The notes beneath the pieces are model-generated. The model was not told the DNA's origin, ran no database searches, and was given only the letters and a program-made list of their open reading frames with translations. Below are positions 29,781-34,105 of a DNA stretch of 64,000 bases, piece after piece (the first letter of the stretch is position 1; the number at the start of each line of letters is the position of its first letter). The translations under genes and the position numbers were made by a program. Origin of the DNA: Rhodospirillales bacterium (GTDB lineage: Bacteria > Pseudomonadota > Alphaproteobacteria > Acetobacterales > Acetobacteraceae); contig JANXSM010000143.1 in NCBI GenBank assembly GCA_025352665.1, forward strand, positions 1 through 64,000. Reading direction: 5' to 3'.

Positions 29781-31040
29781 TCAGCCTCCTTGCTGGGTTC
29801 CTGGCCATGCGATGCCCATTCGGGGGTCAAAGCCTGTGGTGCCGGATGGCGGCCGGCTCGCCTCGCGCGTTAGATGTCGGGCCATCCAGGTGCCGAGTTG
29901 CGTGCCATCGAGATATACATCGCCGCTTGTGGGCCCATTGGCCGTTTGCGGCGTTTGTGGCGCGACGGAGGGCAGCGTGGCCGGGGGGGCCGCGGGTTGC
30001 GATGGAGTCTTGGGCGTGGCCGCATCAGCGTTGGCCTGTGGCGCTGCTGAGACTGGCATGGTGGCGGGCAGTTGTGATGGTGATGGTCGGTCCCGTTCGT
30101 CCCGTGTGGGCGCGGAAACAGATGCCGCAGGGGAAGGTCGATGGCTGGACCGAGATTGCGCTTCGTTGCGTGAGCCGGCACCCGGTGCTGCAGGCACAGT
30201 CGAGACCACAGGTAGTGAGACCGGCCGGGCTTTGGTCGGTTCCCCGCCGGGAACCTTAGCGGGCGGGGGCGCCACCTGCGCAGGCGGTGGAGAGGTTATC
30301 CGGATGATCGGGGCTTGCTGCGATTGTGGAGGCGGCGAAGGACCCTTCGCATGAACCGGTTGGAAGGCCTGCGTTGGCGGTTCACCGCGGTCAGCAGGGG
30401 CTGCCGCCGGAGAGGGCTGCGACCAGGTGGAGATGTGAATCGGTGAGACCGTTGCAGCACGTTGTGTGGGCGTGGGAGGCGCCGGAGCCTGCGGCGCTGG
30501 AGAGAGCCTGTTAGGGGGGATGACTGGTGCCGCCACGGCAGCCGAAGGCCGCGCTCCCGGGTGGGCCGGAGAGGCGACAGCAGGAGCAACGACGTTGACA
30601 GAGACAAGCGGCTGCGGCGTTGGTGCGGCAGGGGGCGTGGGCGGTGGGGGCGAAGGAGCCGGTGCCAGGATTTGCGATACTGGGCTCCGCGGCGGCTCGG
30701 GTTTCGCGGCTGTGGGAGGCGCGGCGGGCGGGATCGCTGGGGACACGGGCGGAACCGTTTCGGCGCGCCGCGCCAAAGACTGGTTGTCACCGGCCAGAGG
30801 AGGATCAAGCAGCGCTGGCGCCGATTGACTGGGGCGCGACGGAATCTGGTTCAATCGCTTGAGATCGCCCAGCGCAGCCGCAGAGGCGGTTGCGGAAACT
30901 TCAGCCAGCCGCTGCAGGGCGGTAACGGAGCTCGCAATTTGGCCATCTAGGCTCGAAAGATCTTGCCTGATGGTGGCAACGCCGGCGCTGACGCCGTTCT
31001 CTAGCGCAAGGCGGATGCCGATGACGTAGGCGTCTTCCAT
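29781..31040 (-). CDS. Proline-rich protein in the tape-measure slot
   Basis: The gene sits where the tape-measure protein is expected, but encodes only about 419 residues. The N-terminus (MEDAYVIGIRLALENGVSAGVATIRQDLSSLDGQIASSVTALQRLAEVS) is helical and tape-measure-like. Residues about 75-350 are extremely Pro/Ala-rich (for example PVSPAIPPAAPPTAAKPEPP). The C-terminus is ordered again (TSGDVYLDGTQLGTWMARHLTREASRPPSG). No membrane helices are seen. Two adjacent ATGs exist; the inner one has the better-spaced AGGAG and gives a TGATG overlap like its neighbours. A length rule of about 1.5 angstrom per residue would imply a tail of roughly 60 nm, if it is a true tape measure. Confidence 0.6.
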   Translation of the reverse strand: MEDAYVIGIRLALENGVSAGVATIRQDLSSLDGQIASSVTALQRLAEVSATASAAALGDLKRLNQIPSRPSQSAPALLDPPLAGDNQSLARRAETVPPVSPAIPPAAPPTAAKPEPPRSPVSQILAPAPSPPPPTPPAAPTPQPLVSVNVVAPAVASPAHPGARPSAAVAAPVIPPNRLSPAPQAPAPPTPTQRAATVSPIHISTWSQPSPAAAPADRGEPPTQAFQPVHAKGPSPPPQSQQAPIIRITSPPPAQVAPPPAKVPGGEPTKARPVSLPVVSTVPAAPGAGSRNEAQSRSSHRPSPAASVSAPTRDERDRPSPSQLPATMPVSAAPQANADAATPKTPSQPAAPPATLPSVAPQTPQTANGPTSGDVYLDGTQLGTWMARHLTREASRPPSGTTGFDPRMGIAWPGTQQGG

Positions 31041-31402
31041 CATGCACTCCTGATCGCCTGGGTGATTGTTATCGCGATAGCCGCAGCGATCGCCTCGCCC
31101 TGCTCCGCTGCGATTGGACCGAAGGTGGGCCGCGGAGGCACGGTGGGGGTACCGTGCTCCTGATAGAGAGCGACATCCGATGCGCTGCCGATCACGACGT
31201 CCTCGCCATCAGCTAAGCAGCCAATGCTGTCGTGCAGGGCGCCAGTCTGCCGCCAAGGATGATCATGCGAACCGCCGGGACCGGTCGACAGAGCGACGCG
31301 CACCTGTTCAGCGAGCTTGTCCCCCTGTTGCTGCAGGCTTGCCCGAGCGATCGTGTCGATGTCGAGAGCGGCCAGGCGAGCGACAAGGTCTGACAGGATC
31401 AT
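31040..31402 (-). CDS. HK97 gp10-like tail completion/connector protein
   Basis: The 120-residue product fits small head-tail or tail-terminator proteins: SLQQQGDKLAEQVRVALSTGPGGSHDHPWRQTGALHDSIGCLADGEDVVIGSASDVALYQEHGTPTVPPRPTFGPIAAE. The GPGGxHxxPWRQTGALxxS and YQEHGT..PPRPTF motifs recur in this group. Such genes usually lie before the sheath; here it lies after the tail chaperone. The ATG is preceded by GGAAGGAG and overlaps the stop of the frameshifted chaperone product by four bases. Confidence 0.68.
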   Translation of the reverse strand: MILSDLVARLAALDIDTIARASLQQQGDKLAEQVRVALSTGPGGSHDHPWRQTGALHDSIGCLADGEDVVIGSASDVALYQEHGTPTVPPRPTFGPIAAEQGEAIAAAIAITITQAIRSA

Positions 31403-31910
31403 TGACGCTCCTTCCAACTCATTGTTGCGAAGTCGAACTCGCCACCATCTAGCCTGCCAAGGGCGACGACCCAGGCGAGGCGGTCTTCGGGGGCGAGCGA
31501 GAAAGCGACGTCGAACGGCACCCCGTTCCGGCACAGATAAAGACTGTCAACCAGATCGGGGTGCCGACTCAGTTTCCCGCGTGGTCTGCCATATCGATCG
31601 GGTCGGGCGGCACCAAGGCGCTGGCGATAGCGTTAATGCCAGCGTCACCCAGACGCGACACCAGCGCCTCGATCTGGGCTTCGTTGATCGGAGCTGGAAC
31701 CGGAACGTCATCTATTGCGGCAACGGAATACGCGAGTGTGGCCATACCCAACCACAAATGGTTCTGCGCCAGCGCGGGGCCGGCTGCCTTGAACAAACGA
31801 AGCTTGTCCAACGCGGTCAAGCGACGCAGAGCGAGAACACGACCATCCGAATCGATCGTCGTCGGGGCAGCCTGCGCCGCTGCGATTAGCCGGGCGGAGG
31901 GCGTGTCCAT
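31399..31910 (-). CDS. Tail assembly chaperone, -1 frameshift fusion form
   Basis: After slipping at GGGAAAC the ribosome would add 57 residues, beginning LSRHPDLVDSLYLCRNGVP and ending LGRLDGGEFDFATMSWKERQ, then TGA. The composition is normal for a phage protein, and the (F/W)D..TM.W ending recurs in such extensions. The fusion stops at a TGA overlapping the ATG of the next gene (ATGA), which leaves no unexplained gap in an otherwise tightly packed operon. In lambda, the G and GT forms act on the tape measure. The slip event itself is not observed here, only predicted. Confidence 0.72.
31569..31910 (-). CDS. Tail assembly chaperone, short form
   Basis: The zero-frame product has 113 residues and is helical (LRRLTALDKLRLFKAAGPALAQNHLWLGMATLAYSVAAIDD...INEAQIEALVSRLGDAGI). 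It lies between tail tube and tape-measure slot, the place of the gpG-type chaperone. The ATG at 31910 overlaps the tube stop by one base (TGATG). The stop codon directly follows a G GGA AAC heptamer, and the next 57 codons in the -1 frame are open and protein-like, so a longer frameshifted form is expected. Confidence 0.82.
   Translation of the reverse strand: MDTPSARLIAAAQAAPTTIDSDGRVLALRRLTALDKLRLFKAAGPALAQNHLWLGMATLAYSVAAIDDVPVPAPINEAQIEALVSRLGDAGINAIASALVPPDPIDMADHAGN
31572..31578 (-). promoter_or_regulatory. Slippery heptamer G GGA AAC for -1 frameshifting
   Basis: In the chaperone frame the mRNA reads GCG GGA AAC TGA. GGGAAAC fits the X XXY YYZ rule for tandem -1 slippage, and the zero-frame stop comes immediately after. 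The efficiency and any downstream stimulating structure cannot be judged from the sequence. Confidence 0.72.
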
Positions 31911-32338
31911 CAAACGCGAACGCGCGTGGCCGCGAAGAAGTCGAGCTTCTGCTTGACGCTTTGGTCACCGCGCCAGGTGCCGGCCTGGCTGAGCTTGAAA
32001 ACCACACTGCCGAATTGGTAGGTGCTGGTGCTGCCGTCGACCTCCTGGACGTATTGGTAGAGACTTCCCGACGGCACAGCGCCGTTACTGAGATAGGTGC
32101 TCTCGATCCGGGCGATGAAATCATCGACGGCGGAGCTGCCGCGTTCGATTTCAAAATAGCCCTCCCAGCCTTTCGGCAGCTCGGCTGCGAGCTGGGTTCC
32201 GTCGATCCGATCGATGCGGATCGGGGTCGTGAGCTGATGACTTTCGAAGCCTGTGACATGGCTGAGATCGACACGGCCGAATGGGCCCATGACGACAATC
32301 TGGCAGTCGCGGCCGAGCGAGAATGTGTTGCTGGGCAT
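31910..32338 (-). CDS. Tail tube protein
   Basis: The 142-residue protein directly follows the sheath gene, the standard place of the inner tube. It begins MPSNTFSLGRDCQIVVMGPFGRVDLSHVTGFESHQLTTPIRIDRIDGTQLAAELPKGWEGYFEIERG, which is typical of short-tube proteins of Mu- and P2-related phages. It ends FFAATRVRV. Spacing to the sheath stop is 12 bases and AGGAGAA lies ahead of the ATG. Confidence 0.82.
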   Translation of the reverse strand: MPSNTFSLGRDCQIVVMGPFGRVDLSHVTGFESHQLTTPIRIDRIDGTQLAAELPKGWEGYFEIERGSSAVDDFIARIESTYLSNGAVPSGSLYQYVQEVDGSTSTYQFGSVVFKLSQAGTWRGDQSVKQKLDFFAATRVRV

Positions 32339-32350
32339 TGAATTTTCTCC

Positions 32351-33922
32351 TTACGCGGACAACGAGCCGGGCGCACCCGGAAGCGTCTGGCGCTGCACCT
32401 GAACGGTCTGGCCGCCCTCCATGTTCACGATGAATTTCTCGTTGATGGCCTGGTACTGGATCTGTGCGTCTGACTGCACGTAGCCGAGACCGGTGCGGTT
32501 CGCAGGATTGTTTGTAAGATCGCAGATGACGCTGAAAGGAAGCTTCCCGTCAGTGCTGCCAAGCAGACCTTGGCCCAGCATCGCCTGGAGAAAACTCAGC
32601 TGGGTGGCGCGGATGCGACGGAAGAGAGACTGGTTGATAACCTGGCCAACATATTGGCCCATACCGGCCGAGAGCGTGGCGGCGATGTAGTTGGTCAAAC
32701 GGGTATAATTGTCACCGCTGGTGGCTGCGTTGGAGCTGCTGTTATGCCCCCCGCGAACACCCCAGAACGCACCGGCGGGCTGCGGGTTGGCGATGACATC
32801 GATACCTGCGCCGAGCAAGACCGCAAGTTCCGCGGCAGAATAGCTCGTGGTCTGGTTGGAGCCGGGCGTGCCCGACTTCTGGCTGCCGATCACGCCGAAC
32901 AACGGCTTGTTGAGGCTGGATTGTTCGGGCGACAGATTGGCCAGGCGGCCAGCGACGAAGCCTTGGGGGCTCACCAGGCGCATGCTGGCGTTGACCTGAT
33001 CATTCCACCAGATCCAGTCACCGAACATCAGCTTGGCAGCGTAGCTATCCAGACCTACCGCTTGCTTGGTGCCGACAACATTGGTGATGCTATCACCGGC
33101 GGGAGAGGTGAGGATCATGTAGACACCTTCAGCAAGCCCGAATGCTACCTGTGTGGTCCACTGCGTGGCGTCGTCACCATCGGCGAGCAGGGCGATGGAG
33201 CAGCCTTGCCCACGCAGCGCGTAGAGGCCTTTGCGAGGAATGGTGTCGACGCCGACGAGCGTGGCCGCGGTGGCGCCGCTCGCGCCATCGGTGCCGGGTG
33301 TGCCGGTGGAGAATGAGAGATTCATCGCCGAAGGCGTTAGCGACGTGCCACCGGAAGTGGTGACGACGATCTGGCTCGGTCCACGCTGGGGGCCGGTGCC
33401 GGCATTGATTGCGCTCGCAAGATTGATCCAGAACTGCGCACCGCCGCCGGCCACATTGTCGAACACCTCGGGCTGGAGGCCAGGCAGCACAACCGTTGCA
33501 CGCCAGGTCCCCCCGCGACTGCCGGCGGCGAGGGTAAAGCTGACCTGGTTGCCGAGGCTACCGGTATACAGAGCCGCCAGTTGGAATGCTGTGCCAGGCA
33601 CCGTGAGGCTTGCTGCCGTGTCGGTCCCGTCGGAGGCGCGGACGCAGCGGAAGTTGCTGGCGCCCTGCTGCACGGCGGTTGCGATCTGGGTGCCCATATC
33701 ATATTTGCGCGGCATCACCGGGCCGAACATCTTGGCGAAATCGGCCATTGAACTGGCGATAACCGGAAGGCCCACAGGACCCCAACTTGAAGTGCCTACA
33801 ACGCCGAGGACGTTGGTCGGTACGCCGTTGAGGACCAGATTCTGCGGAGAGACAATCTGGACATAGAGATCGGGCACCACGAGAGCGGTGGTGTTGATGT
33901 TGCCTTGCTGGACAATGGGCAT
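32351..33922 (-). CDS. Tail sheath protein
   Basis: This 523-residue protein forms the contractile sheath. Sheath-family parts include the start (PDLYVQIVSPQNLVLNGVPTNVLGVVGTSSWGPVGLPVIASSMADFAKMFG), a surface-exposed Gly/Ala/Thr-rich domain in the middle and the C-terminal core AAFWGVRGGHNSSS-like (AGAFWGVRGGHNSSSNA), then TRLTNYIAATLSAGMGQYVGQVINQSLFRRIRATQLSFLQAML. Its presence makes the particle contractile. It precedes the tube gene. Confidence 0.9.
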   Translation of the reverse strand: MPIVQQGNINTTALVVPDLYVQIVSPQNLVLNGVPTNVLGVVGTSSWGPVGLPVIASSMADFAKMFGPVMPRKYDMGTQIATAVQQGASNFRCVRASDGTDTAASLTVPGTAFQLAALYTGSLGNQVSFTLAAGSRGGTWRATVVLPGLQPEVFDNVAGGGAQFWINLASAINAGTGPQRGPSQIVVTTSGGTSLTPSAMNLSFSTGTPGTDGASGATAATLVGVDTIPRKGLYALRGQGCSIALLADGDDATQWTTQVAFGLAEGVYMILTSPAGDSITNVVGTKQAVGLDSYAAKLMFGDWIWWNDQVNASMRLVSPQGFVAGRLANLSPEQSSLNKPLFGVIGSQKSGTPGSNQTTSYSAAELAVLLGAGIDVIANPQPAGAFWGVRGGHNSSSNAATSGDNYTRLTNYIAATLSAGMGQYVGQVINQSLFRRIRATQLSFLQAMLGQGLLGSTDGKLPFSVICDLTNNPANRTGLGYVQSDAQIQYQAINEKFIVNMEGGQTVQVQRQTLPGAPGSLSA

Positions 33923-33925
33923 AGC

Positions 33926-34105
33926 TCAGGCCTCCGATGCTGTGGCGATGGTCCAGTTGGGAACGGCGACGTCCGGGGCGCTTAGCCGCACAACTTTGTC
34001 GGAGTTCTCTCCTGCAAGGATAACGGCAATGTCTGTGGCGTCGGTGATGCGGTCGCCTTTGGCGTGCGGGCCGAAGCTCCGCACGACGGCCAGGTGGATG
34101 TTCAT
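33926..34105 (-). CDS. Small phage protein before the sheath
   Basis: The 59-residue product (MNIHLAVVRSFGPHAKGDRITDATDIAVILAGENSDKVVRL...) starts at an ATG with AAGGATC ahead of it and ends three bases before the sheath ATG. It was isolated from a longer open frame with unrelated upstream sequence. A small protein at this position is common in Mu-like tails. Its function is not known. Confidence 0.6.
   Translation of the reverse strand: MNIHLAVVRSFGPHAKGDRITDATDIAVILAGENSDKVVRLSAPDVAVPNWTIATASEA

Follow-up and report, generated by a model that had tools for sequence, protein, structure and literature searches.

The putative tail assembly chaperone gene of the window (here the whole 64,000-nt stretch analysed, on contig 36 of a 5.27 Mb, 177-contig assembly) very probably gives two proteins from one start codon, through programmed -1 frameshifting of ribosomes at a site with a putative RNA stimulator. 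Since slip site and hairpin are both kept in relatives, the mechanism, known from other phages, can be regarded as well supported here; what is unusually strong, at the level of sequence comparison, is the comparative evidence for the hairpin. A sequence-only reading of the same DNA had already proposed a frameshifted chaperone made in two forms, and this is supported by the conservation of the heptamer and the persistence of the extension. All of the sequence features it described are present in the window: the chaperone frame ends GCG GGA AAC TGA, the G GGA AAC heptamer lies at 31578-31572, exact to the base, and 57 codons are open in the -1 frame, to a TGA (31401-31399) that overlaps the ATG of the next gene (31402-31400) as ATGA. 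It omitted the hairpin, as well as the Neck1-like gene ahead of the tape-measure position.

Table 1. Features of the chaperone locus in window coordinates.
Feature	Positions	Strand	Remarks
Tail sheath protein	32351..33922	minus	PHROG 23 tail sheath, E 1.4e-39
Upstream gene, putative tail tube	31910..32338	minus	PHROG 12993 (unknown function)
Chaperone zero-frame ORF, 113 aa	31569..31910	minus	ATG at 31910, TGA 31571-31569
Slippery heptamer G_GGA_AAC, abuts chaperone stop	31572..31578	minus	read from sequence
Zero-frame TGA stop, adjoins heptamer	31569..31571	minus	read from sequence
Hairpin 5' arm (GGCACCCCG)	31557..31565	minus	6 nt past heptamer
Hairpin 3' arm (CGGGGTGCC)	31517..31525	minus	31-nt loop separates arms
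-1 frame extension, AAA codon to TGA 31401-31399	31399..31575	minus	predicted fusion product 170 aa
Next gene, tail completion / Neck1-like	31040..31402	minus	PHROG 5, E 2.7e-7
Tape-measure-position gene, 420 aa, proline-rich	29781..31043	minus	putative role, from position

As envisaged here, most ribosomes would decode GGA AAC and stop at the adjacent UGA, giving the short chaperone. A minority, delayed by the hairpin five to six bases downstream, would slip one base back on G_GGA_AAC, re-pairing in the P site (GGA to GGG) and in the A site (AAC to AAA); these ribosomes would pass the UGA and translate the 57 further codons of the fusion. The host encodes tRNA-Lys(UUU) and (CUU), tRNA-Gly(UCC), (CCC) and (GCC), and tRNA-Asn(GUU), a set that includes tRNA-Gly(UCC) and so makes GGA to GGG re-pairing by this tRNA plausible. 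By analogy with lambda gpG/gpGT, the commoner short form may be the partner of the tape-measure protein, with recruitment of tube subunits left to the rarer fusion. We infer the occurrence and efficiency of the slip, its stimulation by the hairpin and these roles in assembly.

Flanking genes match terminase, portal, major head, scaffold and baseplate families, and the locus is apparently a contractile-tailed prophage. The chaperone gene, whose ATG has one base in common with the stop of the upstream gene, follows the sheath and putative tube genes and precedes the Neck1-like gene and then the tape-measure position. It would thus lie between tail tube/sheath and tape measure, the tube and tape-measure roles being suggested by gene order. 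No Pfam or PHROG family match was obtained for the tape-measure-position gene (29781-31043). Among 55 complete copies with its N-terminal motif, 51 are of 450 aa or less, and the short relatives contain 7.6-22.5% Pro (median 14.9%). The gene at this position is 522-760 aa long with 3-7% Pro in the divergent L046, L047, L060, L231, L255 and L299, and 742 aa with 6% Pro in phiKX1. A tape measure reduced to such a length and so rich in proline would be out of the ordinary.

The window chaperone matches PHROG 20383 (unknown function; E 5.8e-21), as do all 71 members of the family. PHROG 508, annotated as tail assembly chaperone, is matched weakly by 15 of the 71 (best E 0.0012), the window protein not being one of them; in a class sample phrog_508 was found in 2 of 240 genomes, again not including the window's host. 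The window chaperone has no Pfam family match, and PF10109 (Phage_TAC_7) is not among the eight families matched by any of the 71 members (E 0.1). A PF10109 set built from relatives was also tried and gave no convincing alignment (hhalign prob 20.8). An AlphaFold2 model of the chaperone (pLDDT 89.5) was compared with viral models by Foldseek. Rank 1 was an uncultured phage protein (E 2.6e-6) and rank 3 was Mu FS-gp41 (P0DJY4; prob 0.97, TMq 0.53, E 0.025); all ranks below the first had E above 0.01, annotated tail assembly chaperones had E 0.08 and above, and baseplate-annotated proteins were intermixed with chaperones in the ranking. Among solved structures, no convincing match was found by sequence, Foldseek or VIA-align (best Z 3.5). 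Identification as a tail assembly chaperone is based on gene order, on the weak PHROG 508 matches and on the modelled fold's weak match to Mu FS-gp41. Neighbouring PF10109 matches occur elsewhere in the host genome (G000), on contig 67 at 33436-33678 and 33724-33972 (L303, L315), and are perhaps a second tail locus.

Chaperone matches were found at 60 places in 53 of 195 genomes, counting the window's own; a class-wide sample of 385 genomes gave two, the window's genome and one of its family. The contig search contributed the best 80 of 113 relatives. Most are MAGs of Acetobacteraceae or Rhodospirillales, but outliers under the labels Limnoglobus roseus and Rhizobium lusitanum also occur. IMG/VR contributed the best 80 of 410 relatives and 33 more with a divergent set, while 50,697 phage records gave matches only in phiKX1 and phiKX2. 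Removal of copies identical over about 300 bases reduced the resulting 254 loci to 200 distinct regions. Most of the loci were fetched by extension-protein patterns, of which the KLS.. pattern itself favours AAA-CTN, so the 60 chaperone-fetched loci (59 distinct) are the unbiased test. For heptamer counts, the junction was located via the extension.

The heptamer sits in the X_XXY_YYZ register of the zero frame, as G_GGA_AAC or A_AAA_AAC. At the 60 chaperone-fetched loci there are 32 GGGAAAC, 25 AAAAAAC, one AAAAAAA, one GGGAAAT and one with none (L047), i.e., an exact heptamer at 57 and, counting one-base variants, something at the same spot in 59. The 200 distinct regions from all sources give 124 GGGAAAC, 70 AAAAAAC, one each of AAAAAAA and GGGAAAT, and four others, so that 194 are exact. 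The sequence-only reading had proposed a search of homologues for the heptamer, and its conservation at the junction in these sequences is beyond chance. A pattern fixing AAACT and the stem, with the three preceding bases left open, had 78 distinct hits among those listed, 62 of them not previously collected: 62 GGG, 15 AAA and one CGG. The CGG hit is an unrelated chance match, leaving 77 of 78 with GGG or AAA; one of the AAA hits (L392) resembles the extension in its first part only. The GGG and AAA forms are three substitutions apart, with no intermediate among the 200 regions. A quickly built tree of 120 members (from 154 thinned rows out of 183, heptamer codons excluded), run without a shuffled control, shows at least six switches between them, to which DNA exchange between phages could have contributed.

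A stop codon directly follows the heptamer in 173 of the 200 distinct regions; in others it comes 2, 7, 8 or 14 codons later. For comparison with this direct adjacency, the PRFect paper gives, in the part concerned, mean distances of 26 nt for SEA-PHAGES and 36 nt for the Xu phages (PMC10885494). Four of the 200 regions (L047, L209, L259 and L299) lack the heptamer. L259 has G_GGG_GAA ahead of a TAG, L209 seems degenerate, and L299 has neither heptamer nor clear extension start. L047 is a natural unlinked version: its extension starts with a dedicated ATG behind a GGAG motif and overlaps the 3' end of the chaperone gene. In L292-L295 the heptamer is present and the stem of the family missing, and the genome of L038 (G029) has a chaperone match with one in-frame stop.

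Starting with the AAA codon at 31575 and read in the -1 frame, the extension translates as KLSRHPDLVDSLYLCRNGVPFDVAFSLAPEDRLAWVVALGRLDGGEFDFATMSWKERQ up to its stop. By tblastn it is matched at all 60 chaperone-found loci, the weakest at E 0.005 (L060). Decay of the extension in relatives, which would have spoken against the sequence-only reading, was looked for and is absent: besides the 60 matches, the codon pattern is protein-like, with variable third positions except in the hairpin part. The window extension has no Pfam or PHROG family match; phrog_21699 is matched by three of 31 extension members, at E 0.023 or worse. It had also been predicted that gene finders would leave a 166-base gap here (31568-31403). 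The size is right, but a gap is not always what annotation gives: for phiKX1 (LC644975.1, L061 4405-4584) the public record has a separate CDS that begins at an internal ATG and covers the distal part of the extension.

Downstream of the heptamer, the two arms in Table 1 (31565-31557 and 31525-31517) form nine base pairs, and in the window a tenth (31566-31516) extends the hairpin to 10 bp, beginning five to six bases past the heptamer. Taking the first base of the heptamer as 0, positions 13-21 pair with 53-61, leaving a spacer of 6 nt, which falls inside the 5-9 nt range studied for -1 sites according to the relevant part of one paper (PMC5009743). Of the 59 distinct regions found with the chaperone, 45 have the full nine pairs and 11 have eight; the other three have seven, six and five, respectively. 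Across 175 sequences (those of the 200 with a profile score of 40 or more, untruncated and distinct, which leaves most of the exceptions outside), each pair is formed in 95-100%. RNAalifold predicts the same stem minus its outermost pair, and nothing else. A pseudoknot was considered and rejected: at 70% pairing, the listed helices of at least four pairs other than the stem all overlap its arms. The predicted fold of the window is more stable than 200 of 200 shuffles (z -5.59), and four relatives folded alongside it have z from -5.56 to -1.98.

Covariation within the hairpin is thin. In 92 ungapped sequences (an alignment made from 120 thinned ones, leaving out L047, L209, L259, L299 and 24 further rows), 96.3% of hairpin cells are paired, vs. 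38-50% in slid versions; for covariation the score is 0.116 vs. 0.035-0.079. Because the stem hardly varies, shuffled partners still pair in 95.3% of cells, and each observed value was reached by 0 to 3 of 500 shuffles. Pairs with changes on both sides number four, which one slid version equalled, and one of the seven two-sided cells comes from L293, a stemless relative.

The freezing of synonymous sites is better evidence for the hairpin than covariation. The codon register of the two arms is antiparallel, so that the third bases of one arm lie opposite coding bases of the other, and it is precisely these third bases that are frozen. The third base of codon 4 is G in 175 of 175 sequences; the stem Gly codon is GGG in 172 of 175 (27% in the same genes) and the stem Val codon GTG in all 175 (51% in the same genes), while the Pro third base is C or T in 159 of 164 (background 34%). 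A Pro codon just beyond the stem varies freely by comparison (CCG 87, CCC 49, CCA 28, CCT 11). Stem codons have a third-base entropy of 0.00-0.65, whereas for codons 2, 3, 7-16 and 20-27 the value is 0.99-1.81. The chaperone-found regions agree, with Gly GGG and Val GTG in 59 of 59 each. The alignments show RNA-level selection acting on both heptamer and hairpin.

Could the frameshift be real and the hairpin incidental, with constraint acting only on the protein, at the H-P and G-V-P residues? The paired bases do lie mostly within these conserved residues, and the near-equal pairing of shuffled partners agrees with such a reading. It leaves unexplained, however, why the pairing third bases (14, 20, 56 and 59) are frozen when those of residues just as conserved, but located outside the stem, vary, and why slid controls pair so much less. 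Substitutions that keep the pairing also run against it: at 18-56, C-G has become T-A in L278, L281, L287 and L300, with Pro changed to Ser, and there are compensating changes from G-C to A-T at 21-53 (L044) and from G-C to C-G at 14-60 (L052). An incidental hairpin is accordingly judged highly improbable. Slippage by RNA polymerase, gaining or losing a base in a run of A so that part of the mRNA is in frame, draws on the six-A run of AAAAAAC in 70 of the 200 regions. The 124 regions with GGGAAAC, however, have no run beyond three, the two forms interchange, and a hairpin at ribosomal distance is retained with both of them, which makes transcriptional slippage extremely unlikely.

A separate gene for the extension, reached by coupled re-initiation at the stop (for instance on the CUG of AAC UGA) or from an internal start, accounts for some of the observations. 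AACTGA yields a CTG in the extension frame, the phiKX1 annotation begins at an internal ATG, and an extension-frame ATG, GTG or TTG is found between codons -12 and +19 in 190 of 190 regions tested, because Val-19 of the extension is GTG; an ATG lies in this interval in 30 of them. An SD-like motif precedes an extension-frame ATG or GTG in 44 of the 190, and all 40 listed of these 44 concern the Val-19 GTG, 3' of conserved residues. The sequence-only reading had pointed to a start codon and ribosome-binding site of the extension's own in homologues as contrary evidence; these were looked for, with one clear case, the divergent L047 with its ATG and GGAG. On the other side, in six of the 59 distinct regions found with the chaperone the heptamer is followed by TAA, which leaves no CTG, and the extension is still kept; the residues KLSRHPDL, upstream of the internal starts, are conserved as protein; and re-initiation has no need for GGGAAAC or AAAAAAC. 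We consider it very unlikely. On these points, re-initiation, internal starts, slippage of the polymerase and purely protein-level constraint were all rejected after testing.

Within the frameshifting interpretation, a more speculative and rather doubtful idea is that the family represents a distinct sub-design, in which an AAC-type heptamer set against a stop is rescued by a strong, near-invariant hairpin, in a retroviral- or coronaviral-like manner. A_AAA_AAC is less shifty than A_AAA_AAG in E. coli. The sub-design may have been adopted because a dedicated tRNA-Lys(CUU) in the host makes AAG a poor slip codon, and a stop codon in the next A site could offer a second opportunity to slip. IS3-type overlaps in the related genomes give a mixed picture: five of 11 have a heptamer (AAAAAAC in two, AAAAAAG in two, AAAAAAA in one). 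The IS3-type transposase overlaps at L324, L327, L329 and L348 contain AAAAAAC as well as AAAAAAG. A DNA search with the tRNA gene does not discriminate tRNA-Lys from the tRNAs for other amino acids.

These results fill a hole in annotation, given a window extension without a Pfam or PHROG family and a phiKX1 gene split into two hypothetical proteins. With about 200 natural variants, the family would be well suited to asking how a frameshift ratio in alphaproteobacteria depends on heptamer, stop codon and hairpin; for comparison, nature supplies L047, in which chaperone and extension are unlinked. In the literature searched, no paper was found on the frameshift or hairpin of this chaperone family; a survey of alphaproteobacterial phages has no word beginning "frameshift".

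Lambda gpG/gpGT and P2 E/E+E' were reportedly described as frameshifted tail assembly chaperones by Xu, Hendrix and Duda in 2004. Both resemble the window in having the gene between tube/sheath and tape measure, a -1 slip close to its 3' end and an extended minority form. Mu FS-gp41 (P0DJY4), from an Escherichia phage, has a weak fold likeness to the window chaperone, with no shared sequence family found. The window locus presumably has a Mu-like tail gene order; the Mu frameshift reportedly differs in detail. P2 differs in its TTTTTTG heptamer (PMC3091744, in the part on P2-like phages), whereas the window family has the hairpin and a stop directly after the heptamer. In the same part of that paper, three Burkholderia P2-like relatives had no hairpin found and none was expected from P2, and downstream structures are called rare in phages.

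Frameshifted tail chaperones, which the sequence-only reading calls common in long-tailed phages, are well known, and in certain tailed phages the shift seems to occur without stimulators (both from PMC5009743). The passage on frameshifting in the Burkholderia phage KL1 paper instead has downstream structures often found (PMC3483164). Among known phages of alphaproteobacteria, the Caulobacter phages phiCbK and Colossus have AAAAAAC and GGGAAAC, respectively, in their pre-tape-measure chaperones (PMC3556154), so that the same two heptamers swap between related phages there too; phiCbK differs in being a siphophage, and its description, in the portion on this gene, mentions neither hairpin nor stop adjacency (PMC3556154).

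The Komagataeibacter phage phiKX1 has AAAAAAC TGA and the same stem, and the particles obtained from its lysogen strain have a contractile tail of 98.9 nm (PMC8566455, section 7); it differs in being annotated as two separate hypothetical proteins, and the main text of that paper has no word beginning "frameshift" or "chaperone". The siphophage KL1 resembles the window in having an extra gene ahead of the tape measure, and its gp18/gp19 have GGGAAAC directly before TGA with a stem-loop downstream, a single-genome prediction in the portion of the KL1 paper concerned (PMC3483164). KL1 gp18 has no BLASTP similarity to the window chaperone, and its RNA folds otherwise, with a 6-bp hairpin one base past the heptamer and another further on.
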